Origin: Zobellia amurskyensis
Lineage (GTDB): Bacteria > Bacteroidota > Bacteroidia > Flavobacteriales > Flavobacteriaceae
Length of the DNA: 64,000 nucleotides
Assembly: GCF_009725985.1 (NCBI RefSeq)
Contig: NZ_RCNR01000017.1
Coordinates: forward strand, 1-64,000
Direction: 5' to 3'
The notes under the pieces were generated by a model. It was given only the letters and a program-made list of their open reading frames with translations. It did no database searches and was not told the DNA's origin. Positions within the stretch are counted from its first letter, which is position 1. The number at the start of each line of letters is the position of its first letter. Positions 249 to 15,136 of this stretch are shown here, one piece after another. Position numbers and translations under genes: made by a program.

Positions 249-2990
249 ATGCCAACTAAACAGAGTTATCTTTTTGTAATTGTATTCTTGATTAGTCTAA
301 CCACTTTTTCTAGAGATATTTATGTCGCCAAAAATGGAGACGACTCCAATCCAGGCACTCTGGAAAATCCGTATTTGACCATTTCTAAAGCGGCGGGCGA
401 AGCCACCGCGGGGGACATTGTATATATAAGAGAGGGAACCTACCAAGAGACCTTGATCCCAGCTAATTCCGGGAGTCCCGGTCAACCTATTGTTTTTCAA
501 TCCTTCCCTGGGGAAAAAGTAATCATTACGGCTATGGATGCCTTATCCGGTTGGAGCCAGGACAGCGGCTCCTTTTACAAAACTACCATTTCCTTCACTT
601 CCCTAGGACAAGAAAACTTTGTAATGAACGATGCCACGGCACTGGATTTAGCCCGATGGCCCAACAAAACAGAGTCCGACCCTTTTGCCCTGGGGAGCAT
701 CCGGAATACGGGCGGAAGCAGTGGCGATGTAATTAACGGAGCTTATTTAACGGAAGCCTCTATTCCGGGAATTGACTGGACCGGTGGTGCACTTTGGTTC
801 TATGGTGATAAACCCGGTAGCGGATGGTTGGCATGGAAAAGAATGATTACTGGCAGTTCTGCGGGCAGGGTAAATTTTGACCATACCACCACTACCAACG
901 AAACCTGGGTAAGAACTTTTCATGCCCCAGCGGATTTAGGTGATTTTTACTTAGAAGGCGTAAAAGGCGCCTTAGACTATGAAAACGAGTGGTATTTTGA
1001 TGAAAGCACAAGCACCCTGTACGTTCAACTTCCCGAAGGCCAAACTCCTATTGATGGCAAGGTAAAAATGAGACGCCGTCTAGAAACTATTAATCTTAAG
1101 GACAAAAAATACATAGAAATAAAGAATTTGGCGGTGTTTGGGGGCAGTATTAATATGGAGGACAGCTCTACTTGGTGGGCATCCAATGCCAATAGCAAAA
1201 CTACGAACAACCTACTCTACGGTGTCACTTCCTTTTTTGGCAACCATACCCAAGGAATCACTAACAGCTCACGCACCAACAATGCCAATATTCATGTACA
1301 GGGTTCAAACAATAGGGTTGAAAAATGTGAGATTGCATTTAATGCCGGAGCCGGATTGGTCGTTAGGGGCAACAACCAACAAATTTTAGACAATTATATT
1401 CACGACTGCAATTTTCTTGGTTCGTACGATGGACCTTTGGTTATTAGGGGCATCAAAAACAGTTTAGTAAAAAACAATACCGTTTTTAGAGGAGGAAGAG
1501 ATGCGGTACAGTACAATGGCTCCGACAATGAATTTGCCTATAACGATATCTCCCGAAGCAACCGGATTGCGGATGATTGCGCCCTTTTCTATACCGTTGG
1601 AGCACAATACACCACAGAAATACACCATAACTGGTTTCACGATACCGCTTCCAGCGGAAAGAAATACAAAGCTGCCGGGATTTATTTGGATAACGATGCC
1701 GCAGGATTTGTAGTTCACCATAATGTGGTCTGGAATACCGAATGGACTAACGTACAAATCAATTGGAACGGAACGGACATTGATATTTTCAACAATACGC
1801 TTTGGAACGGTTCAGAAGTGATGGGTGCATGGCACAAGGATGGAACTGCCTTCTCTAACGTTCGGGTATGGAACAATCTTGGAAGCGATTCTAATTGGGA
1901 GCCACAATCGGACAAACAAAATAATCTGGTCGTTCCGGCCAGTACATTCATGAACGTCGCCAATGGTGATTTCACTTTAAACGACGGTGCTTCGGCCATT
2001 GACCAAGGAAAGGATATTCCAGGAATAACTGATGGATTTTCGGGCGATCAGCCTGATGTTGGCGCGTATGAAAAAGGAGGTGAACAATGGGTAGCGGGCA
2101 TTACTTGGCAACCTTTGTATGGAGCCGCAGGTTTAGGTTGTTACGGATTACCCGGTGAAGACTGCATTGCAGTTGACCCTAATGACAAAGACAATGACGG
2201 TGTAAACAATGCCGATGATGAATGTCCGGAAACACCTTTAGGAACCAGCGTAGACACCAAGGGATGTGCCGTTTTTAGCTTAGCTGCCGATAATTTTAAG
2301 ATAAAGGGAACCGGTGAATCGTGCAGCAATAGTGACGATGGAACTATTTCTATAAGCTCCACAGTTACCTCATATCAATTTAAAGGAAAAATAAAGGAGA
2401 CCGGAACAGAAAAGAATTTCACTTCTGATGCCTTGTTCAACAACTTAAGCGCGGGAACTTACACGCTATGTATTACCACTACCGCCCATGCCAATTATGA
2501 ACAATGCTTTGTTATAGCCATAGACGAACCGGAAGATTTATCCGTATCCTCAAAGATAGACAACAGTACAAACCAGCTTACCCTAAGCTTGAAAGGCAGT
2601 GACAACTATAACATTGAACTAAACGGGGTAGTCACCCATACCGCTCAAGATGAAATTACGCTAGACCTATCCAAGGGTCAAAATCAACTTTCGGTTCAGG
2701 CTGATAAGTTTTGCCAAGGCGAATACACTGAGGTTATTAGTGTTTTTGATGGAGTCACCGTTTTTCCCAATCAAGTAAAAGATGAGCTAACGGTTGCTTT
2801 TTCCCATGCGCTGGATTCTTTAGTTACTCTTGAGCTGATTTCGGCAACGGGGAAAGTGGTACTGACCAAGACCGAATCGGCAGGTAATCAAACTACCACT
2901 GTGGATACGTCCAATCTAAGTTCGGGAATTTATTTCCTTAACATCACCGCAAAAAACATCAACTCCCAAGCTAAAATCGTTAAACAATGA
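249..2990 (+). CDS. Secreted right-handed beta-helix protein with T9SS sorting tail
   Basis: Secreted protein of about 913 residues. The ATG at 249 puts a signal peptide (MPTKQSYLFVIVFLISLTTF) at the N-terminus; an in-frame ATG at 165 would add 28 non-signal residues and is less likely. The N-terminal part resembles secreted parallel beta-helix proteins (YVAKNGDDSNPGTLENPY, then repeated N-rich turns such as NNRVEKCEIAFNAGAG). Around residues 640-670 there is a calcium-binding thrombospondin-3-like stretch (DKDNDGVNNADDECPETP). The last 75 or so residues form a typical type A T9SS sorting domain (VFPNQVKDELTV ... SSGIYFLNI ... KIVKQ). The fold suggests a polysaccharide lyase or other carbohydrate-active enzyme, but I see no catalytic motif that fixes a substrate. 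Its stop codon overlaps the next start (ATGA), so the two genes are probably co-translated. Confidence 0.8.
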   Translation: MPTKQSYLFVIVFLISLTTFSRDIYVAKNGDDSNPGTLENPYLTISKAAGEATAGDIVYIREGTYQETLIPANSGSPGQPIVFQSFPGEKVIITAMDALSGWSQDSGSFYKTTISFTSLGQENFVMNDATALDLARWPNKTESDPFALGSIRNTGGSSGDVINGAYLTEASIPGIDWTGGALWFYGDKPGSGWLAWKRMITGSSAGRVNFDHTTTTNETWVRTFHAPADLGDFYLEGVKGALDYENEWYFDESTSTLYVQLPEGQTPIDGKVKMRRRLETINLKDKKYIEIKNLAVFGGSINMEDSSTWWASNANSKTTNNLLYGVTSFFGNHTQGITNSSRTNNANIHVQGSNNRVEKCEIAFNAGAGLVVRGNNQQILDNYIHDCNFLGSYDGPLVIRGIKNSLVKNNTVFRGGRDAVQYNGSDNEFAYNDISRSNRIADDCALFYTVGAQYTTEIHHNWFHDTASSGKKYKAAGIYLDNDAAGFVVHHNVVWNTEWTNVQINWNGTDIDIFNNTLWNGSEVMGAWHKDGTAFSNVRVWNNLGSDSNWEPQSDKQNNLVVPASTFMNVANGDFTLNDGASAIDQGKDIPGITDGFSGDQPDVGAYEKGGEQWVAGITWQPLYGAAGLGCYGLPGEDCIAVDPNDKDNDGVNNADDECPETPLGTSVDTKGCAVFSLAADNFKIKGTGESCSNSDDGTISISSTVTSYQFKGKIKETGTEKNFTSDALFNNLSAGTYTLCITTTAHANYEQCFVIAIDEPEDLSVSSKIDNSTNQLTLSLKGSDNYNIELNGVVTHTAQDEITLDLSKGQNQLSVQADKFCQGEYTEVISVFDGVTVFPNQVKDELTVAFSHALDSLVTLELISATGKVVLTKTESAGNQTTTVDTSNLSSGIYFLNITAKNINSQAKIVKQ

Positions 2991-3700
2991 TATCCAAGAC
3001 ATACATTCAATCAATACTTTTTCTTTTTCTTAGCGCCTTTTGCTGTTGTAGCAGTGGCGATGACGGGACTAAAGATAACACGCCCCCTAAAGAAAGCCTA
3101 CCGCCCGAAGCCTCGGCCTTGGTTTTTCCGAAAAATAACGAAGAGTGCAATCAAGGTGATATCATCTCTGCCACCCAAAGTAAAGTAACCTTTAAATGGA
3201 ACGCTTCCTCACATACGGACAGTTACACCTTGACATTAAAAAATCTGGAGACCAATGAAACGACCGAAAATGATGCAACCACCAATTCACTTGCTTTGAC
3301 TATTTCAAGAAACACCCCCTACTCCTGGAACATTATCTCAAAATCAAACGAAACAACTGATACGGCAACCAGCGAAATCTGGAAGTTTTACAATGCCGGA
3401 GAAGGTAATGAAAACTACGCCCCTTTTCCAGCTGAAGCCGTTACTCCCGCCATGGACGCCAGTGTAGACCAACCTCTTACCCTAAGTTGGAAAGGGAGTG
3501 ATGTTGACAATGATATTGTTTCTTATGATGTGTATCTAGACACCGCCAATCCACCCGCCACCTTACACGCCAATACAACAGATTCAAAAATAGACGATGT
3601 TGCTCTTAGCGCTGCTACTGCCTACTATTGGAGAGTGGTCACTACCGACGAAAATGGTTCCAGTTCACAGTCGCCTGTCTTTGAGTTCAAAACCAAATAG
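2987..3700 (+). CDS. Lipoprotein with fibronectin-III-like domains
   Basis: 237-residue lipoprotein. The N-terminus has a hydrophobic signal ending in a cysteine run (LSAFCCCSSGDDG), matching a lipobox followed by the acidic/serine stretch common in surface-exposed Bacteroidota lipoproteins. Two domains follow with the beta-sandwich pattern of fibronectin type III: roughly residues 40-130 (FKWNASSHTDSYTLTL ... YSWNIISK) and 145-237 (LSWKGSDVDNDIVSYDVYL ... YYWRVVTTDENG). There is no enzymatic signature. It starts inside the stop codon of the beta-helix gene, so it is probably a surface partner or binding protein for that product. That role is inference from position only. Confidence 0.75.
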   Translation: MISKTYIQSILFLFLSAFCCCSSGDDGTKDNTPPKESLPPEASALVFPKNNEECNQGDIISATQSKVTFKWNASSHTDSYTLTLKNLETNETTENDATTNSLALTISRNTPYSWNIISKSNETTDTATSEIWKFYNAGEGNENYAPFPAEAVTPAMDASVDQPLTLSWKGSDVDNDIVSYDVYLDTANPPATLHANTTDSKIDDVALSAATAYYWRVVTTDENGSSSQSPVFEFKTK

Positions 3701-3717
3701 AACTAATACTAATGCAC

Positions 3718-3750
3718 AAAAAAACCAAAGTGTTCTACTTTGGTTTTTTT
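3718..3750. terminator. Bidirectional Rho-independent terminator
   Basis: A perfect 10-bp stem (AAACCAAAGT/ACTTTGGTTT) with a 5-base loop is flanked by A and T runs. It serves both the plus-strand lipoprotein gene and the minus-strand methionine operon that converge here. Confidence 0.9.
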
Positions 3751-3773
3751 ATACAATCTAATTTTATTAGTCT

Positions 3774-4943
3774 TTAGGCCAGTGCTTGTGAAATATCGGC
3801 AATGATATCATCTATGTGTTCCAGCCCTACGGAAACGCGCACCATACCGTCCGTAACGCCCGTTTCTGCACGCTCTTCTACCGATAGCTTACTATGAGTG
3901 GTTGACGCCGGATGTGTAACAATACTACGTGCATCACCCAAATTAGCGGAAAGCGATAACATTTTTATGGAATCGAAAAACTTCTGCCCGGCCTCTACAC
4001 CACCTTTCACTTCAAAGGCAACCACACAGCCACCTGCCTTCATCTGTTTTTTGGCAATTTCGTATTTAGGGTGCGATTTTAAAAACGGGTATTTTACCCA
4101 ATTCACTTTTTCATGTCCCTCAAGAAACTCCGCTAACTTCAAGGCATTCTCGCAATGGCGGTCCACACGAACGGCCAAGGTCTCCAAACTTTTGGAAAGT
4201 ACCCACGCATTAAATGGTGATAATGCAGGGCCTGTTATCCTAGAGAAACGATAAACCTTATCTATCAACTCGTTTGACCCTACCGTAATACCAGCAAGAA
4301 CACGGCCCTGCCCGTCCATTAATTTGGTTCCCGAGTGGATGACCAAATCGGCGCCAAACTTAATGGGTTGTTGTAGATAAGGCGATGCAAAGCAGTTATC
4401 TATTACAAGAATCAGATTATGTTTCTTGGCAATCTTTCCCAAAGCTTCCAAATCCAAAACATCTACACCAGGATTAGTAGGTGACTCCGCATATATAATT
4501 TTAGTTTTCGGTGTAATTAAAGCCTCTATAGAATCTAAATCATCAATCTTAAAATAGGTATGGTCAATGTTCCATTTTGGAAAAAAATTGGTAAACAGCG
4601 AATGTGTTGAGCCAAAGATGCTTCGTGCAGAGAGTACATGGTCTCCACTATCCAAAAGCGCGGCCAAGGTAGAAAATACAGCGGCCATACCCGAAGCGAA
4701 GGCAAAACCGTTTTCGGCACCTTCCATCTGGCATACTTTTTCAATGAATTCAGATGAATTGGGGTTGGAATAACGCGAGTAGATATTTCGCTCTTTCTCT
4801 TCCGCAAACGACGCACGCATATCCTCGGCATCTTCAAACACAAAACTAGAGGTCATGTACATTGGTACGGAGTGCTCTAAGTTTTTAGTACGTTCCAACT
4901 GCGTTCGGATGGCGTTCGTCTCAAATTTCTTTTCCATGTTCAT
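3774..4943 (-). CDS. metZ: O-succinylhomoserine sulfhydrylase-like PLP enzyme (MetZ family)
   Basis: 389-residue trans-sulfuration enzyme of the Cys/Met metabolism PLP family, which forms homocysteine from an activated homoserine and sulfide. Family marks are the substrate-side motif HSVPMYMTSSFVF, IYSRYSNPN, the cofactor segment VIDNCFASPYLQQP, the Schiff-base lysine near residue 207 in HSGTKLMDGQGR, and the C-terminal THPASTTHSKLS. The SRY-NPN and LMDGQGR details look more like MetZ than like cystathionine gamma-synthase or lyase. It is the last gene of the minus-strand operon, 37 bases behind the fusion gene. The fused MetX should make O-acetylhomoserine, so the true acyl donor here is open. 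The start could be M1 or M3. Confidence 0.85.
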   Translation of the reverse strand: MNMEKKFETNAIRTQLERTKNLEHSVPMYMTSSFVFEDAEDMRASFAEEKERNIYSRYSNPNSSEFIEKVCQMEGAENGFAFASGMAAVFSTLAALLDSGDHVLSARSIFGSTHSLFTNFFPKWNIDHTYFKIDDLDSIEALITPKTKIIYAESPTNPGVDVLDLEALGKIAKKHNLILVIDNCFASPYLQQPIKFGADLVIHSGTKLMDGQGRVLAGITVGSNELIDKVYRFSRITGPALSPFNAWVLSKSLETLAVRVDRHCENALKLAEFLEGHEKVNWVKYPFLKSHPKYEIAKKQMKAGGCVVAFEVKGGVEAGQKFFDSIKMLSLSANLGDARSIVTHPASTTHSKLSVEERAETGVTDGMVRVSVGLEHIDDIIADISQALA

Positions 4944-4980
4944 ATAAATTGATGAAAGCTAACTTTCTCTATTACTTTGT

Positions 4981-7900
4981 TTATCCTTTTTCGGCTATAC
5001 GGAGAATATCTCCAAAAACCCCTCTTGCCGTAACCGCGGCACCTGCTCCTGCTCCTTGAATTACCAATGGATTTTCACCATAGGATTCAGTATATATTTC
5101 TATTATTGAATCGGAACCTTTTACCTGCCCTAGGGCACTTTCCTTAGGTACGGATACCAATTTTACATCTAGAATACCCTTTTCTTCCTGAAGATTTCCG
5201 TGTAAATCGCCCACATATCGTAATACATGGCCTGGTTTCTGGTTCTTTTTGATTTCGTTGAATTTGGCATCTACCACATCTAGATTATCAAGAAAATGGT
5301 TTACATCGCCATCTCTTAATTGTTCCGGAATTAAATTTTCAATATTGATATCCGAAAACTCATTGCTCAGATCCAATTCCCTGGCTAGAATCAATAATTT
5401 TCTACCTACGTCATTACCGGAAAGGTCTTCACGTGGGTCCGGCTCCGTAAAACCACTTTTCATTGCTGCCCTTAATATGTTCGAAAATGGCTCTTCGCTC
5501 TCAGAAAACGTATTAAAAATATAACTTAACGAACCTGAGAACACCCCTTTTATACCCGTAATATTTTCACCTGATAGGTGTAATAAACGTATAGTATCTA
5601 TCAAAGGAAGGCCTGCACCCACATTAGTTTCGTACAAATATTGCTTCTGATGTTTGTCTAACTCCTCACGCAATAATTGGTAATAATCAAAACCTAATGT
5701 ATTGGCTATTTTATTGGACGAAACAATATCAAATCCGTTTTCCACAAACTCAAAGTAATGGGCTACAAACTCACTGTTAGCCGTATTATCTACTACAATA
5801 AGGTTTTCTAAATGGTTCTCTTTTGCATAGGCGATAACGTCTTCTACCTTATAAGGAATACCTTTATCCTCTATGGCAGATTTCCAATTTTTTGGAACTC
5901 CCTTCTTATTTAAAAGAATCTTTCTAGAGTTGGCTACCGCAAAAACATTTAAGTCAATACCCTTTCTTTTTTGAATGGTCTTAGTAGATTTCAGAATCTG
6001 GTCAATGAGCGTTCCACCCACATTTCCATGTCCAAAAACTGCCAGATTTACTTTTCTGCTTATGCCAAAAATCTGACCGTGCATTACGTTCAATGCTTTG
6101 TTCAAATCTGATTTCCTAAGCACAAGACTCACGTTCTTACCAGATACCGTATTATTGAAAAGTAAAGGCGCAATCTGATTCTTGATCAAAGCGTTATAAG
6201 GCCTATGGAACGTACTCAAATCCTGGCCCACAATAGAGATAACGGAAACCTCATCCAGCACCGTAATCATGTTAATATCTTTGGATTCATAGTCGCTTTC
6301 AAACTCCCTATCCAATGCTCGTTTAGCTTCTAGGGCGTTGTTGGCATTAACAACCAAACCAATACCCCGCTCCGAAGAACCTTGAGAAATTATACTAACA
6401 CTAATATTACTTTTTTGAAGCGCACTAAAAATACGGGCATCCACCCCTACTTTCCCCAAAAGCCCTCTACCCTCAACATTAATCAAGGATACATTTTCTA
6501 TAACGGAAAGCGACTTAATGCCACCTTCTTCTGTTTTTGCACTAATTAGCGTGCCTTCATTATCGTTATTGAACGTATTTAAAATACGAAGGGGAATATT
6601 CTTTTCTATTAATGGGATGATAGTTTTGGCGTGCAAGATAGTGGCACCGAAATTTGCCAATTCGTTCGCTTCACCATATGAAAGGTGAGAAATACGTTTG
6701 GCATCGGACACCAAATCAGGGTTTGCCGTGTAAACACCATCTACATGTGTAAAGTTCTGAAGTTCTTCTGCATTCAAAAAATTAGCGAATAAAGCCGCGG
6801 AATAGTTGCTACCGTTACGTCCCAAAGTTGTTGTTTCCCCGTTCTCATTAGAAGCAATAAAGCCTGTAATGATCGGTACGGCATCTTCATCTAACTTAGC
6901 AAACCGGCGCAGAACGTTTTCTTTTGACAATGCTTCGTTTACTGAGGCATCTCCAAAATTAGAATCCGTTTTTATCAATTCCCGAGAATCCAGCATTACT
7001 GCATTTACACCTTTACCTATTAATAACTTGGTCACTAATTTCACAGAAATAAGTTCTCCAAAAGCCAATAACTGGTCCTTTATCTTCAAGCTATAGTCAC
7101 CCAAAAGTGATACTCCTTCAAGCAATTTTGCCAAATCTTTGAACTCCTCAGATAGGTTGACATTCTTAAAGCTATTCTTCTGATACTTTTCAAAAGCCTC
7201 AAAATCTTTATAATAATTTTCACCTTTAACAGCCTTCTCTAAAATAGCTTCCAATTGGTCAGTTCCCTTTTCACGGGCAGAAAGGACCACTGCTATATTC
7301 TCTCCTTCTTTAACCTTTGCTTTAATAATATCCAAAACGCGCTCTAACCCTTCACCATTGGCAAGTGATTTACCACCAAATTTTAAAACTTTAGCATGTT
7401 TAGATTTACCGTTTCTACTAAAAACAGGTTCTAACAATTGTTCCACCTGCTCAAATTCTATCAAAAAAGCGTCATGGCCGTGAAGAGAATGTATCTCTCC
7501 ATATGTTACATTACCATTGGCCTGAGCAAGGCGTTTAAAAGTTTCCTTATTTTCTTTTGCCGTAAAGAACAAGTCAGAATCTACCCCAATGATATGAATG
7601 TTAACATCACTGTTCTGCAACTTTATAAAGTTCTTTTCACCGTTTCTCATGACATCTATAGTCTTGAGCAACTGGTTCATGAGTTTATACGCCGATAGCT
7701 GAAAACGCTCTTGTAATTTTTCGCCGTGATGCATAAGCCAACTCTCCACATTAAAAACCTGAAGATTTTCATTGGTACTTCGTTTAAAACGCTCTTTGAA
7801 AGATTCTGGCGTGCGATAGCACAACATGGCATGCATACGGGCATCATGAACGGGCATTTTGCTATTTACTAAAAATTGTTCCTGTATCTGACAGTTACCA

Positions 7901-8367
7901 ATCAACCAATCCGTAGACTTCCAGTCAGACGCAACGGGTATCAAATGATCCGTGATTTTAGGATTAAGCGCAGCCATTTCCCATGCAACCCCTCCTCCTA
8001 ACGAACCACCAATAAGCGCGAACAATTTTTGAATTTCCAGTTTTTGAAGACCCAACAAGAAAATTCTTGCAATGTCTCCGGCCACGAAATCCTTATAATT
8101 ATCGATGATGAATTTATCGTATCCGTTACCAGGAATATTAAAACATAGAATGGTATACTTTTTAGTATCAATACATTTGCCGTCGCCAATAAGGGCCGAC
8201 CACCAACCGCCATCTCCAGTAACGTTAGAGTTACCAGTAAGCGCATGATTTACCTGTACAATAGGCGCAGTGTGCAATTCTTGACCGAACAACTGATAGG
8301 AAAGCTCAATATCTTGAGTAACCCCACTTATGGTTGTATAGTTTGCTAATTTCAGATGATGAAGCAT
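4981..8367 (-). CDS. Trifunctional MetX-like acyltransferase / aspartokinase / homoserine dehydrogenase
   Basis: 1128-residue fusion of three enzymes. Residues 1-315 are an alpha/beta-hydrolase homoserine O-acetyltransferase (MetX) with an apparent full triad: Ser122 in GGSLGG, Asp265 in DSDLFF and His298 in GHDAFL. Residues about 325-770 are an aspartokinase with two ACT regulatory domains. Residues about 772-1128 are homoserine dehydrogenase, with the NAD(P) motif VFGHGNVGG and the family stretches FSGSLSYIFNTF and EPDPREDLSGNDVGRKL. It would catalyse the first step from aspartate, homoserine formation, and homoserine acetylation. In the kinase part the usual KFGGT motif reads KFGGK, and GRNGSD reads GRNGSN. 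The gene lies between metY and the MetZ-like gene, behind the SAM-I riboswitch. Confidence 0.92.
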   Translation of the reverse strand: MLHHLKLANYTTISGVTQDIELSYQLFGQELHTAPIVQVNHALTGNSNVTGDGGWWSALIGDGKCIDTKKYTILCFNIPGNGYDKFIIDNYKDFVAGDIARIFLLGLQKLEIQKLFALIGGSLGGGVAWEMAALNPKITDHLIPVASDWKSTDWLIGNCQIQEQFLVNSKMPVHDARMHAMLCYRTPESFKERFKRSTNENLQVFNVESWLMHHGEKLQERFQLSAYKLMNQLLKTIDVMRNGEKNFIKLQNSDVNIHIIGVDSDLFFTAKENKETFKRLAQANGNVTYGEIHSLHGHDAFLIEFEQVEQLLEPVFSRNGKSKHAKVLKFGGKSLANGEGLERVLDIIKAKVKEGENIAVVLSAREKGTDQLEAILEKAVKGENYYKDFEAFEKYQKNSFKNVNLSEEFKDLAKLLEGVSLLGDYSLKIKDQLLAFGELISVKLVTKLLIGKGVNAVMLDSRELIKTDSNFGDASVNEALSKENVLRRFAKLDEDAVPIITGFIASNENGETTTLGRNGSNYSAALFANFLNAEELQNFTHVDGVYTANPDLVSDAKRISHLSYGEANELANFGATILHAKTIIPLIEKNIPLRILNTFNNDNEGTLISAKTEEGGIKSLSVIENVSLINVEGRGLLGKVGVDARIFSALQKSNISVSIISQGSSERGIGLVVNANNALEAKRALDREFESDYESKDINMITVLDEVSVISIVGQDLSTFHRPYNALIKNQIAPLLFNNTVSGKNVSLVLRKSDLNKALNVMHGQIFGISRKVNLAVFGHGNVGGTLIDQILKSTKTIQKRKGIDLNVFAVANSRKILLNKKGVPKNWKSAIEDKGIPYKVEDVIAYAKENHLENLIVVDNTANSEFVAHYFEFVENGFDIVSSNKIANTLGFDYYQLLREELDKHQKQYLYETNVGAGLPLIDTIRLLHLSGENITGIKGVFSGSLSYIFNTFSESEEPFSNILRAAMKSGFTEPDPREDLSGNDVGRKLLILARELDLSNEFSDINIENLIPEQLRDGDVNHFLDNLDVVDAKFNEIKKNQKPGHVLRYVGDLHGNLQEEKGILDVKLVSVPKESALGQVKGSDSIIEIYTESYGENPLVIQGAGAGAAVTARGVFGDILRIAEKG

Positions 8368-8379
8368 AAGGCATATATT

Positions 8380-8410
8380 AGACCTACCCGGCTCCAGGCC
8401 GGTTAGGTCT
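8380..8410 (-). other. Strong intra-operon hairpin
   Basis: An inverted repeat AGACCTA ... TAGGTCT encloses CCGGC ... GCCGG with one mismatch and a 5-base loop. It lies in the 74-base gap between metY and the fusion gene, 13 bases before the fusion start. There is no U-tract on the minus-strand transcript, so it is more likely an mRNA processing or stability element, or a partial attenuator, than a full terminator. Confidence 0.6.
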
Positions 8411-8441: not shown

Positions 8442-9716
8442 TTAGAGTGTTGCGAATGCGTTTTCCAAATCCGCTTTTAAATCCTCAATATCTTCCAAAC
8501 CAACTGACAAACGAATGAGGTCTTGACCTACACCAGCTCCTTTAAGTTGTTCTGCATTTAACTGCTGATGCGTTGTACTAGCTGGATGAATGATCAATGA
8601 TTTTGTATCGCCAATATTGGCCAATAGAGAGAAAACCTTAGTGGCATCCGTAACTTTTTTAGCTGCTTCAAAACCACCTTTTATTCCAAACGTAACCAAT
8701 CCGCTTTGTCCTTTTGGTAAATATTCTTGAGCAAGATCGTAGTATTTACTACTCTTAAGACCCGGGTAGTTCACCCACGCTACTTCTTCTCTTCCTTCTA
8801 ACCAAGTTGCCAATTCTAGTGCGTTAACACTGTGCTGCTTGATACGCACGTTCAACGTTTCCAATCCTTGAATGATTTGGAACGCATTAAACGGACTCAA
8901 AGCTCCACCAAAATCGCGCAATCCTTCTAAAATTAATTTAAAAGTAAAAGCAGCTGCACCTAGAGCTTCACTATATACTAAACCATGGTAACCTGCAGAT
9001 GGCTCAGTAAATTCCGGGAATTTTCCGTTTGTCCAATCAAAAGTTCCTGCATCAATTATAGCTCCACCTAAAGAAGTACCTTGACCACCAATATATTTAG
9101 TTAAGGAATGAATTACCAAGTTGGCACCATGCTCAATAGGGTTTAAAAGCGCAGGTGAAGCAACTGTATTATCTACAATAAAAGGAACTTGTGCTGCTTT
9201 AGCTTCTTTTGAAATGGCTTTTAAATCTAATACATCCAATTTAGGGTTACCCAAAGATTCTACAAAAAAGGCTCTTGTATTATCCTGTACCGCTTTACCA
9301 AAACTTTCCGGATCAGAAGCATCTACAAAAGTTGTAGTGATTCCCAACCTTGGCAAGGTAACGTTCAACAAGTTAAATGTTCCTCCATATAAACTACTAG
9401 AAGCAACAATGTGGTCCCCTGCTTTTAAGAGCGTTAATAAACCTGTAGAAATAGCAGAAGTACCCGAAGCAAAAACTACAGCACCTACACCACCTTCTAC
9501 TGCAGCCAATCTATCCTGAAGGATTTGATTGGTAGGATTGTTTAAACGGGTATAAATAAAACCAAGTTCGGCTAATGAAAATAAATTGGCTGCATGGTCC
9601 GTATCATTAAAAACATACGAAGATGTTTGGTAAATAGGTACCGCACGTGTACCACCCGTCTGTGCGGGGTCGTGTCCGGCATGTAATGCGTTGGTCGAGA
9701 ATTTTTGATCACTCAT
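8442..9716 (-). CDS. metY: O-acetylhomoserine sulfhydrylase (MetY)
   Basis: 424-residue PLP enzyme that converts O-acetylhomoserine plus sulfide to homocysteine. Family marks are FSTNALHAGHDP at the N-terminus, the MetY-type TRAVPIYQTSSYVFNDT, the cofactor region VDNTVASPALLNPIEHGAN, the Schiff-base lysine near 207 in HSLTKYIGGQG, and HPASTTHQQL near the C-terminus. The length is typical for MetY and longer than for MetZ or cystathionine enzymes. It is the first gene behind the SAM-I riboswitch at 9844-9951, so it should be repressed when S-adenosylmethionine is plentiful. It is paralogous to the MetZ-like gene at the far end of the same operon. Confidence 0.93.
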   Translation of the reverse strand: MSDQKFSTNALHAGHDPAQTGGTRAVPIYQTSSYVFNDTDHAANLFSLAELGFIYTRLNNPTNQILQDRLAAVEGGVGAVVFASGTSAISTGLLTLLKAGDHIVASSSLYGGTFNLLNVTLPRLGITTTFVDASDPESFGKAVQDNTRAFFVESLGNPKLDVLDLKAISKEAKAAQVPFIVDNTVASPALLNPIEHGANLVIHSLTKYIGGQGTSLGGAIIDAGTFDWTNGKFPEFTEPSAGYHGLVYSEALGAAAFTFKLILEGLRDFGGALSPFNAFQIIQGLETLNVRIKQHSVNALELATWLEGREEVAWVNYPGLKSSKYYDLAQEYLPKGQSGLVTFGIKGGFEAAKKVTDATKVFSLLANIGDTKSLIIHPASTTHQQLNAEQLKGAGVGQDLIRLSVGLEDIEDLKADLENAFATL

Positions 9717-9843
9717 AATCTTTGATTTTTAATTGTTATTTAAAATAATTAAAAGCCCGATACTTTGAACCGGAAATCCGATGCTAGGTAGAATATCAAA
9801 AAAGTTATAAGAAAGTAAAAGATTAGTATGAGTAATCTGATTT

Positions 9844-9951
9844 GTTATCTGTCTCATTTTTATAGAGATAGAATGTAGCACCTTCTCTGCACAAGTGGCA
9901 AAGGGTTGCTAAGGTTTCAAAGGGTCTATTCCCTCCACCTTTCTTGATAAC
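9844..9951 (-). promoter_or_regulatory. SAM-I (S-box) riboswitch upstream of metY
   Basis: The minus strand carries the S-box core in order: GTTATCAAGAAAGGTGGAGG, then GAAACCTTAGCAACC, a P3 stem CTTTGC/GCAGAG, and GGTGCTA. A P4 stem (CTATCTC/GAGACAG, one mismatch) follows, and the P1 helix closes exactly as GTTATC (9951-9946) with GATAAC (9849-9844). It sits 127 bases before the metY start. I do not see a clear intrinsic terminator after the aptamer; only a short AGATTA/TAATCT hairpin just downstream. The expression platform is therefore unresolved. It should switch off the metY, fusion and metZ operon at high SAM. Confidence 0.95.
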
Positions 9952-9982
9952 TATTCAATACGTGTTTGAACTTTTGGAACTA

Positions 9983-9990
9983 CAAATATA
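9983..9990 (-). promoter_or_regulatory. Promoter -7 box for the metY operon
   Basis: On the minus strand TATATTTG matches the Bacteroidota -7 consensus TAnnTTTG exactly. It lies about 32 bases upstream of the first base of the SAM-I aptamer, so the transcript would begin just before the riboswitch. Confidence 0.65.
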
Positions 9991-10029
9991 TAGTTGGCGA
10001 ATTTAAATTCACCAACATTTTCAAAAAAT

Positions 10030-11286
10030 TTACAAACTAAAGGCCTTTTTTACCTCATTTACCATATCTAATTTTTCCCAAGTAAACAATTCTACCTCCT
10101 TTTCAATTCGGCCGTTGTATGGCGATTCAAAAACTTTCTTAACCATTCTTGGTTCTTTCCCCATATGACCGTAAGCCGCAGATTCCAAATAAATAGGGTT
10201 ACGCAACTTTAGACGTTCTTCAATAGCAAACGGACGCATATCAAAAAGAGCTTTAGTTTTATTGGCAATTTCCCCATCCGTAAGATTTACGTTAGATGTA
10301 CCGTATGTATCTACATATATTGATGTAGGCTCAACAACACCAATAGCGTAACTTACCTGCACCAACATCTCATCTGCAACTCCTGCCGCCACCAAATTCT
10401 TAGCAATGTGGCGCGCTGCATAGGCTGCACTTCTATCTACTTTACTTGGGTCCTTTCCGCTAAAAGCACCACCGCCGTGAGCTCCTTTACCTCCATAGGT
10501 ATCCACTATAATTTTTCTCCCTGTAAGACCGGTATCCCCATGAGGTCCACCAATTACAAATTTGCCAGTTGGGTTAATGTGATATTTTATTTTATCATCA
10601 AATAAATCCTGAATAGCTTGAGGCAATTTTTCTACTACTCTAGGTATCAAAATTTCAACAAGGTCCTTTTTAATTTTCGCCAACATTACCTCATCATCAT
10701 TATGAAAAGCATCATGTTGGGTAGAGATAACGATAGTATCTATACGTTGAGGCACATTGTCATCTGAATACTCTATAGTAACTTGTGACTTAGCATCTGG
10801 ACGTAAATAATCTATGATTTTACCTTCTCTGCGCAACTCAGCTAGATTCTGAAGAATTTTATGCGAAATATCTAGCGCCAATGGCATGTAATTTTCCGTT
10901 TCTTTGGTTGCATAACCGAACATCATACCTTGATCTCCTGCTCCTTGTTGCTCTTTCTCGCCACGATCTACACCTTGACTAATATCTTGCGATTGCTCGT
11001 GAATTAATGAAATAACCCCACAAGAATCTCCACTAAATTGGTACTCTCCTTTAGTATAACCAATGGCATTAATTACATCTCTGGCAATAGTCTGGACATC
11101 TAAATAGGTATCACTTTTAACCTCTCCGGCCAAAACGACCTGACCTGTGGTAACCAAAGTTTCACAAGCAACTTTACTTTCTGGATCAAAAGCCAAAAAA
11201 TGGTCTAATAAGGCATCGCTTATTTGATCGGCAACTTTATCAGGGTGTCCTTCACTAACAGATTCGGAGGTAAACAAATATGGCAT
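10030..11286 (-). CDS. metK: S-adenosylmethionine synthetase
   Basis: 418-residue methionine adenosyltransferase, which makes SAM from methionine and ATP in the cytosol. Diagnostic motifs are [20 protein letters not shown] at the N-terminus, [13 protein letters not shown] for ATP binding, and the phosphate-binding glycine-rich segment [19 protein letters not shown]. It lies just downstream of the metY riboswitch region on the same strand but has its own promoter and a separate riboswitch-like leader at 11358-11436. Length and motifs are normal. Confidence 0.98.
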
Positions 11287-11357
11287 AACAAACTTTTATT
11301 TTTCTTAAAAGGATTTGAAAGAATGCCGGAGAAGATGATGTGAAAGTTTCAACATCA

Positions 11358-11436
11358 ACTGCTTTAGCATTTTTTTCGTTTTACAACCTAAATCAGGTTT
11401 AAAACAGAGGTTGCAATCAGTCAAATCCCTCCTCTT
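11358..11436 (-). promoter_or_regulatory. SAM-II-like riboswitch upstream of metK
   Basis: The minus strand shows the conserved SAM-II elements in order: a P1 arm ending GGAGG, then GATTTG, TTGCA, the P1 partner CCTCT, and ATGCTAAAG. Loop bases ACTG (in GATTTGACTGATTGCA) can pair with CAGT just after GCTAAAG, giving the H-type pseudoknot expected of SAM-II. An extra hairpin GTTTTAAACCT/AGGTTGTAAAAC (one bulge) is inserted between P1 and the GCTAAA element; classical short SAM-II RNAs lack it. Position directly before metK fits. The identification rests on recalled consensus; a covariance-model search would settle it. Confidence 0.7.
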
Positions 11437-11453
11437 AATTTATAACTAGAACG

Positions 11454-11461
11454 CAAAAGTA
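11454..11461 (-). promoter_or_regulatory. Promoter -7 box for metK
   Basis: TACTTTTG on the minus strand matches TAnnTTTG exactly and lies 18 bases upstream of the first base of the SAM-II-like element. The leader RNA would therefore contain the complete aptamer. Confidence 0.6.
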
Positions 11462-11550
11462 TAAAAAATGTTCAGTTCAATATATTAATATCGTGTTATT
11501 TATTACTTCCTTCCATAAATACGCTTGCATTGGTTTGGTTCTACGTATAA

Positions 11551-14280: not shown

Positions 14281-15136
14281 TTACGAACGACCGTTTCTTC
14301 CTCCGCCTCTTCTATTTCTGAAATTTTCTCTCATATCTTTCATTTTCTCCTGAGAGATTTCATCATATTCCGCTTGCGTTACTTTTTTACCTTTAGTAGG
14401 TGCCTTTATATCTACCTTTTCGGAAGGATTCAATGTAATCTGAGAACAAACTATAGTAGTAATATCATCGCTTACAGCAAGAATAAGCCCCGGAAGCCCC
14501 CAATATTCAGAAGGACCTTGATTTACCGGTATTTCAGGAGTATACCACGCAACTATCTCCACTTCTTTTATAACAAATTCCTCCTCTTTTTTTTCGCTTT
14601 CTTTCTTGTCGTCATCATTTGGCCTACGAAAAATAGCTCGCATATTGGGTCGTTTTATTGTCTTTATAGCCGTTGCTTTAAATGCCGTGTAGTTCCCTAT
14701 TTGTCTAGTTTCGCTCTCTAATTTCCAATCTAGTTTTTCAAGTTTATCGTCTATTAAGAAAATTTTTCCAAATAGGTCGTTCTTAACCAGATACTGCTCT
14801 TCTTTTATATTCTTGTACAAATCGCCCCCCGAAGTAGCAAAAGCTCCAAAACGAGGTCCTCTACCCCCCATCTCTACCTCCTGGTTGCTCTAGTTGTTCT
14901 TCTTCTTTGTAGATAGATTCCGTTTGGTTGAAATTAAGCTCATATGTTTTTTCATTGGCCTTTTTCATACGTTCTAACATCTCCTTTTTACGGTCTTCCG
15001 GTATTTTTCTGTTACCGAAATCCATATTCACCTGAGTTTTGCTCTGGTACATTGCTTTCCCTTGAAAGTCCTGTGCATAACCGCTTGAGCATAGCAAAAC
15101 AAGAATTAAACCTATAGACCACTTATATTTCATCAT
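14281..15136 (-). pseudogene. GLPGLI family protein split by a +1 shift in a G6 run
   Basis: Two overlapping minus-strand frames together make one GLPGLI protein. The first (14861-15136) gives a signal peptide (ending SSGYAQ) and the N-terminal region up to EQPGGRDGG-stop. The second (14281-14871) continues with GRGPRFGAF and carries the family motif as YWGLPGLIL, then a basic glycine-rich tail. The break falls at six G residues (plus-strand C run near 14864-14869). With five G the reading is continuous: GGRDGGRGPRFGAF. This could be a real frameshift, a slippage-prone on/off site, ribosomal slippage or a sequencing error. GLPGLI proteins are secreted Bacteroidota proteins of unknown function; here it is paired with a barrel protein. 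Confidence 0.82.

Follow-up and report, generated by a model that had tools for sequence, protein, structure and literature searches.

The window, as we call the whole 64-kb stretch of DNA analysed here, carries on its minus strand a block of genes which profile searches resolved into metK, metY, a MetX-AK-HSD fusion and a metZ-like gene, in this order. The methionine adenosyltransferase gene metK (10030-11286) matched TIGR01034 with 508 bits against a cut-off of 309, and metY, for O-acetylhomoserine sulfhydrylase (8442-9716), matched TIGR01326 with 616 bits against a cut-off of 495. The fusion of MetX, aspartate kinase (AK) and homoserine dehydrogenase (HSD) is a single open reading frame of 1128 aa (4981-8367, minus strand), in which residues 16-313 matched MetX below the cut-off and residues 326-1126 matched bifunctional aspartate kinase/homoserine dehydrogenase I above it. 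The metZ-like gene (3774-4943) fitted best to O-succinylhomoserine sulfhydrylase of the metZ type, just below the cut-off. In the relatives L070, L076 and L095, no AK match was seen between MetX and HSD.

The -7 consensus of Bacteroidetes promoters is TAnnTTTG. Boxes of this type were read from the sequence upstream of metK (TACTTTTG, 11454-11461, minus strand) and of the metY operon (TATATTTG, 9983-9990, minus strand). In the genus leaders examined, the metK box is conserved as TANNTTTG and the TATATTTG box is conserved as well. An earlier sequence-only reading of this DNA had placed a TAnnTTTG box of its own upstream of each aptamer. Shortly 3' of the metK stop and before the SAM-I leader lies a 24-nt hairpin, the near-perfect palindrome GTTGGTGAATTTAAATTCGCCAAC (9993-10016, minus strand), which is kept with variation across the genus. 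This hairpin lies close to the metY promoter's -33 region and may be the metK terminator; it is one of two terminator-like sites in the region, against a chance mean of 1.2.

Both leaders were searched with Rfam covariance models, and one riboswitch class was found in each. The SAM-I aptamer (9842-9953, minus strand) gave a complete match to RF00162 (model positions 1-108, 73.4 bits against a gathering score of 44.4, E = 2.7e-15) and lies 125 nt from metY on the same strand. The aptamer before metK (11354-11440, minus strand) completely matched the long-loop SAM-II model RF01726 (positions 1-60, 63.5 bits against a gathering score of 44, E = 7e-10), with a 27-nt insert in its long loop relative to the model, and lies 67 nt from the metK start, again on the same strand. 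The sequence-only reading had called a SAM-I aptamer before the metY operon and a SAM-II-like one before metK, and would have been undone by the lack of a significant SAM-II match at the metK leader; both calls are borne out, and the coordinates given for the pair, 9844-11436, were correct within a few bases. The only other gathering-level Rfam matches in the 64 kb were two tRNAs, and no additional Rfam family was found within 9700-11520 at E ≤ 1. The identities as SAM-I and SAM-II are nearly certain, and by covariance model both RNAs are candidate SAM binders. The two aptamers do not form a tandem in one leader, as between them lie the 1257 nt of metK and another promoter box. They are ordinary members of known families; what is new is their arrangement and the predicted expression platform described below.

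In the model alignment of the SAM-II aptamer, the P1 stem is formed by AGAGG (11431-11435) and CCTCT (11406-11410) and spans, with its loop, 11406-11435, and the 3' strand of the P2 pseudoknot is GCTAAAGCAGT (11358-11368), both on the minus strand. All 50 cells of P1 were paired in ten leaders of the genus set (see below) and none was variable; being invariant in the genus, P1 provides no covariation evidence for or against itself.

The pairing of SAM-I and SAM-II is not local but is spread across most sampled genomes of the family. Among 199 genomes from 198 genera of the window's family, counted with a search whose stricter filter loses weak matches, 187 had a SAM-II match and 157 a SAM-I match; both classes were present in 151, and SAM-II alone in 36 by hand tally. 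Six of the 12 genomes without SAM-II have SAM-I (G048, G066, G118, G138, G151 and G170). When completeness of 90% or more and contamination of 5% or less were required, the counts were 162/165 for SAM-II and 140/165 for SAM-I, and SAM-II matches were present in 9/9 genomes of the window's genus. In a sample of the phylum, SAM-I was found in 247 of 296 genomes; SAM-II had a match in 45 genomes, 44 of them from the window's family, order or class. Of 80 metK loci with titled records, 20 were scanned with 3 kb covered on each side, and 14 of these had SAM-II. Euzebyella saccharophila (L205, MetK 89% identical) shows the window's order of SAM-II, metK and SAM-I, and SAM-I and SAM-II stand back to back in a Polaribacter locus (L218); in loci picked for close SAM-I/SAM-II matches, from which no frequency follows, the leaders were in line or divergent. 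Outside Flavobacteriales, SAM-II was observed before metK in a Bacteroides MAG (L227, 2762-2821), and the control genome of Bacteroides ihuae also gave a SAM-II match.

The genes behind the two classes differ. With the strand forced, we anchored 110 SAM-II matches (loci L002-L031 and L125-L204) to the first query gene no more than 400 nt away, which was metK in 108 cases, metY in L017 and metH in L162. Both exceptions belong to genomes without a SAM-I match (G004 and G055), and wherever one of the 110 anchored loci came from a SAM-I-bearing genome, metK was next. Among 74 SAM-I leaders found by pattern, all from the loci fetched up to that point, 32 stood before metH, 25 before metY, 9 before metX and 5 before an HSD gene farther off, and 3 were unassigned. 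The comparison supports the split control proposed in the sequence-only reading, with SAM-II on metK and SAM-I on metY/metX and metH-metF, and this division of labour between metK and methionine synthesis is very likely conserved family-wide.

In the window's genome, another SAM-I stands before metH-metH-metF (L062). There, at 2818-8395, this second SAM-I is followed by metH in two parts, of 336 and 901 aa, and by metF, and the metH-metF genes follow uroporphyrinogen-methyltransferase-like and ferredoxin/thioredoxin-reductase-like genes, as named from their sequences.

From this arrangement, we propose that SAM-II would shut metK, the enzyme turning methionine into SAM, and that SAM-I would shut the metY/metX-AK-HSD/metZ operon, the maker of homocysteine, with the second SAM-I standing before metH-metF elsewhere in the genome. 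Judging from aptamers of other organisms, SAM-I may respond at lower SAM than SAM-II, and methionine synthesis would then close before SAM synthesis. A threshold difference is possible, and the published affinities point both ways. The parts of PMC1273637 cited here give about 4 nM for the SAM-I aptamer of yitJ and about 1 µM (156 nt) or about 10 µM (68 nt) for the SAM-II aptamer of metA, and remark that the short SAM-II RNA has a Kd close to the SAM concentration needed for in vitro transcription termination by SAM-I riboswitches. In view of this remark, we regard the order of the thresholds as tentative, at somewhat below an even chance.

The same remark would be expected if the two RNAs were redundant, shut by similar SAM concentrations, and the presence of two classes were a historical accident, a reading that we consider plausible though rather doubtful. 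It also draws on the genomes without SAM-I, since SAM-II stands there before metY (L017), before metH (L162) or before a metK-metY pair, the last in ten genomes (G187, G043, G081, G139, G183, G095, G065, G137, G052 and G020) with metY directly after metK behind the SAM-II leader, which indicates that one class can do both jobs. However, among the 110 anchored loci SAM-II is always before metK where SAM-I is present, which argues that the roles do not mix, and the Kd values that PMC1273637 gives for single members, in the parts cited, are orders of magnitude apart. The metK-metY arrangement suggests that SAM-II alone took over in some small-genome lineages. Second SAM-II copies were also observed near metH/metZ genes in SAM-I-less genomes (L099-L101 and L117), and we read these copies, together with L017 and L162, as class replacement.

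The leader between the SAM-II aptamer and metK was compared in a genus set of ten, made up of the window's own leader, those of eight genus-mates and that of L073, which belongs to another genus; in folding, the SAM-bound state was mimicked by blocking the bases of the pseudoknot. All features that follow lie on the minus strand. The switch strand GGCATTCTTTCAAATCC (11311-11327) is predicted to pair either with the aptamer (GGATTTGA and AATGC) or with the metK start (ATGCC and TTTG). The aptamer segment GGATTTGA (11421-11428) is the predicted partner of 11311-11318 without SAM, and its helix with TCAAATCC was paired in 80/80 cells of the ten leaders. The alternative is a predicted OFF hairpin over the metK AUG (11282-11327), made of GGCAT/ATGCC, CAAA/TTTG and CTTTTA/TAAAAG. 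Of these helices, CAAA/TTTG was paired in 40/40 cells and CTTTTA/TAAAAG in 58/60; the counts for GGCAT/ATGCC (38/50) and AATGC/GCATT (32/50) include alignment gaps that misplace GGCAT, which is present in all ten leaders. A further hairpin, TGATGT/ACATCA (11336-11357), directly 3' of the P2 strand, was paired in 59/60 cells. Since the helices hardly vary within the genus, they give evidence of conservation and not of covariation.

Predicted accessibility of the window's metK start decreased from 0.55 in the free state to 0.19 when the pseudoknot bases were blocked. This bound closure was equalled by 1 of 100 shuffles in the window and by 0-2 of 100 in 10/10 leaders of the set. The drop itself was equalled by at most 2 of 100 shuffles in seven of the ten leaders and by 19, 19 and 6 of 100 in the remaining three, and three leaders of the set showed little drop. 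Flavobacterium johnsoniae lacks Shine-Dalgarno sites and tunes initiation by structure, according to the part of PMC6847099 cited here, and burial of the metK AUG itself fits such initiation. No terminator-like site was found in the SAM-II leader (11286-11353, minus strand), so that the platform is not that of an intrinsic terminator, and intrinsic termination at metK was rejected.

We then turned to the family as a whole, where the spacer between SAM-II and metK often carries a complement of the aptamer, either GTCAAATC (to GATTTGAC) or TTGCAATC (to GATTGCAA). This anti-aptamer was significant against dinucleotide shuffles in 28 of 62 leaders (p ≤ 0.05); in the shuffle tests on the 62 metK leaders, as in those on the metY, metX and metH sets below, the aptamer boundary is possibly off by up to 2 bases. 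Exact boundaries were used for folding 140 leaders and for covariation in 78. The 140 are distinct leaders, with the window represented once, as its copy L001, and with eight genus-mates included, and they leave out 12 metK loci missed by the leader pattern; the 78 are those among them with a TCARATY motif. In the free ensemble, the 140 leaders had 11.1 predicted aptamer-platform pairs, compared to 5.8 with shuffled spacers and a maximum of 6.6 over 20 shuffled families, and 44/140 leaders exceeded all 20 of their own shuffles. A pairing of the spacer with P2 was dismissed as a stand-alone signal, being weak with ungapped scoring (9/62 leaders at p ≤ 0.05). By eye, CTTTAG-type complements of P2 recur in metK leaders.

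Covariation was observed beside the invariant core of the aptamer, where a variable flanking base pairs with a platform base in 61 of 78 leaders (47.8 expected, 0/10000 permutations; G-C in 24 and A-T in 32), kinship still being contained in these counts. Without the genus-mates, the pair was kept in 53/70 (43.2 expected, 0/10000 permutations). It is one of three variable positions beside the SAM-II core, and the other two show little or no covariation (48/78 with 44.1 expected and 29/78 with 29.0 expected). On the MetK tree, two independent covarying row pairs fell on starred branches and five on all branches, which is not significant. The anti-aptamer occurs in two registers, with 79 and 16 rows, and neither or both in 40/135; the tree requires 15 changes of register, at least 4 of them forced by starred branches, and shuffled labels gave the same mean number of changes as the real ones. 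Some of the register labels may be chance motifs. Taken by sequence comparison, the metK leader carries a putative anti-aptamer strand that covaries with the SAM-II aptamer, through few independent events.

Start burial is less general. On blocking the pseudoknot, accessibility decreased by a mean of 0.077 in the 140 leaders, compared to -0.016 with shuffled spacers (largest -0.004), and the drop was above all 20 own shuffles in 36/140 leaders, where about 7 are expected. A drop of more than 0.1 was seen in only 41 of the 140, and accessibility rose in 4. The mean bound accessibility, 0.487, barely differs from that of the shuffles (0.502, with 0.488 as the lowest of 20 shuffled families), and what is seen across the family is a free state that stays open (0.565 against 0.487). 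Direct pairing to the start was discarded as a general trait of metK leaders, since it reached p ≤ 0.05 in just 11/62; 10 of these 11 leaders are in genomes of at most 2.1 Mb.

The lack of clear start burial in most of the 140 leaders would also be accounted for by Rho. In this scheme, which we hold to be improbable, SAM-II is a Rho-dependent attenuator: SAM would free a C-rich, G-poor leader for Rho loading, the anti-aptamer fold would hide the leader from Rho without SAM, and effects on translation would be secondary. The fold logic is the same as in the anti-aptamer model, and base composition agrees, C exceeding G in 128/140 SAM-II spacers, the stretch that corresponds to 11287-11353 of the window (0.197 against 0.117), compared to 20/39 control upstream regions (0.174 against 0.171). 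However, Rho sites have no testable consensus, G-poverty may merely keep the leader unfolded, and the start hairpin seen at the genus level would be superfluous if Rho acted here. We rejected, as extremely unlikely, control by a translated upstream open reading frame of 16 codons between SAM-II and metK. In the window it begins immediately 3' of the P2 strand (ATG at 11355), but it is not conserved among leaders: changes in length put it out of frame in L063, a genus-mate, and an ATG at that place is missing from many others.

The leaders of metY, metX and metH were analysed in the same manner. In the window, the anti-P1 strand TTTCTTATAAC (9804-9814, minus strand) is the complement of GTTATcAAGAAA (9940-9951), and a variable pair next to it is kept. 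The metY/metX leaders share the motif TTCTTnTAAC with A or T as the next base, and in 37 of 43 leaders this next base pairs to the one that precedes GUUAUC in the aptamer (20.9 expected; T-A in 21 and A-T in 14), or in 29/35 without the genus-mates (19.9 expected, 1/10000 permutations). On the tree, the covariation amounts to one event on starred branches and is not significant. Ungapped anti-P1 complementarity reached p ≤ 0.05 in 2/24 metY and 3/8 metX leaders, and in 21 of 28 metH leaders, which have strands of the TTCTTGATGACAT type, complements of the 5' strand of the SAM-I P1. When the metH leaders L035 and L047 were folded without the aptamer, the anti-P1 strand was predicted to bring UGACAU to the AUGUCA start.

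In many metY/metX leaders, a start-complementary strand lies beside the anti-P1 strand, CATTTTTCTA/TAGAAAAATG in one clade and TGATTTTA/TAAAATCA in the other; in the second metY clade, the start pairing CAUUUUUCUA/UAGAAAAAUG is part of the consensus fold and scarcely varies. Complements of the start region reached p ≤ 0.05 in 5/24 metY, 1/8 metX and 2/28 metH leaders, and predicted start accessibility dropped by more than 0.1 in 6/30, 1/7 and 8/28, respectively. The SAM-I leaders may use the same toggle idea, with anti-P1 beside a start complement, as folding indicates clearly for some metH leaders. For the window's own metY, predicted start accessibility was 0.16 in both the free and the bound state, without any fall, and start burial was set aside there.

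For metK, we suggest the following mechanism, which has a little more in its favour than against it. Without SAM, a strand lying 25-41 nt before the metK AUG would base-pair with the aptamer of SAM-II (GGAUUUGA/UCAAAUCC, assisted by AAUGC/GCAUU), and the start codon would stay open. With SAM, the pseudoknot would take the aptamer strands, and the freed strand would fold onto the metK start (GGCAU/AUGCC), so that burial of the start codon would stop translation of metK in a group without Shine-Dalgarno sites. We infer from these predictions that the metK SAM-II would be a translational OFF switch independent of Shine-Dalgarno pairing. The best explanation for the locus as a whole is probably that one gene block is under two OFF riboswitches for SAM that act independently, of which the metK one would act by a start toggle; the negative start-pairing counts and the remark in the part of PMC1273637 cited above weigh against it. 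The broader form, in which the whole family would have two folds of different sensitivity, with methionine synthesis closing first and SAM synthesis last, Shine-Dalgarno-free toggling platforms on both and SAM-II alone in small-genome lineages, appears unlikely.

Several parts of this arrangement have precedents. SAM-II long loops (RF01726) were tabled by Weinberg et al. in 2010 as "Bacteroidetes, marine" (PMC2864571), and the window, exceeding the gathering score, has the same long-loop aptamer; unlike the window, the published description, as cited here and its additional file aside, features neither an anti-aptamer platform nor a pairing with SAM-I. The window shares with the S box (SAM-I, RF00162) a complete aptamer before methionine synthesis genes, whereas here the 5' strand of P1 is the predicted partner of anti-P1, next to which lies a strand complementary to the start, and the single terminator-like site of the metY leader, a hairpin at 9756-9774 (minus strand), is not above chance. 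Tandem SAM-II/SAM-V and SAM-II/SAM-I-IV leaders are known (PMC9481103 and PMC2704228, in the parts cited). Pelagibacter likewise has two SAM classes in one genome, but by these same accounts SAM-II and SAM-V are both in one leader of one gene, acting on a terminator and then on the ribosome site, whereas in the window promoter boxes and genes are separate. In the translational SAM-I of Xanthomonas, the SAM-bound state buries the AUG, as predicted for the window's metK; that riboswitch also uses SD/anti-SD pairing (cited part of PMC7270179), whereas F. johnsoniae and its phylum are without SD (PMC6847099, as cited). SAM-II of Sinorhizobium likewise acts on translation or termination of methionine genes, but is described in the cited part of PMC9373788 as SD- or terminator-based and on metA/metZ, whereas the window's SAM-II is on metK.

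A survey of 2007 reported no species with both SAM-I and SAM-II, in the part of its text cited here (PMC2258182). Among the open-access titles and abstract openings listed, none was found to state that the two classes share a flavobacterial genome; an earlier mention is possible. The aptamers themselves being known, what is new is the family-wide split between classes and the predicted start-toggling platform. The arrangement bears directly on the question of why a single metabolite has more than one kind of RNA sensor, since in most sampled genera of this large family two classes occur together in the same cell, one on the making and one on the use of methionine, and thresholds can be compared there under identical conditions. 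The family is also a test system for translational control by riboswitches without Shine-Dalgarno sites, and the small genomes with SAM-II alone are natural replacements, that is, evolutionary replicates.

Two minor observations concern neighbouring sequences. In Flavobacterium hibisci (L221), a Flavo-1 sRNA (RF01705, 4381-4459) lies just downstream of metK. In the window, a GLPGLI-family gene at 14281-15136 is seemingly split over the overlapping reading frames 14861-15136 and 14281-14871, the latter matching positions 95-228 only of the 229-position profile.
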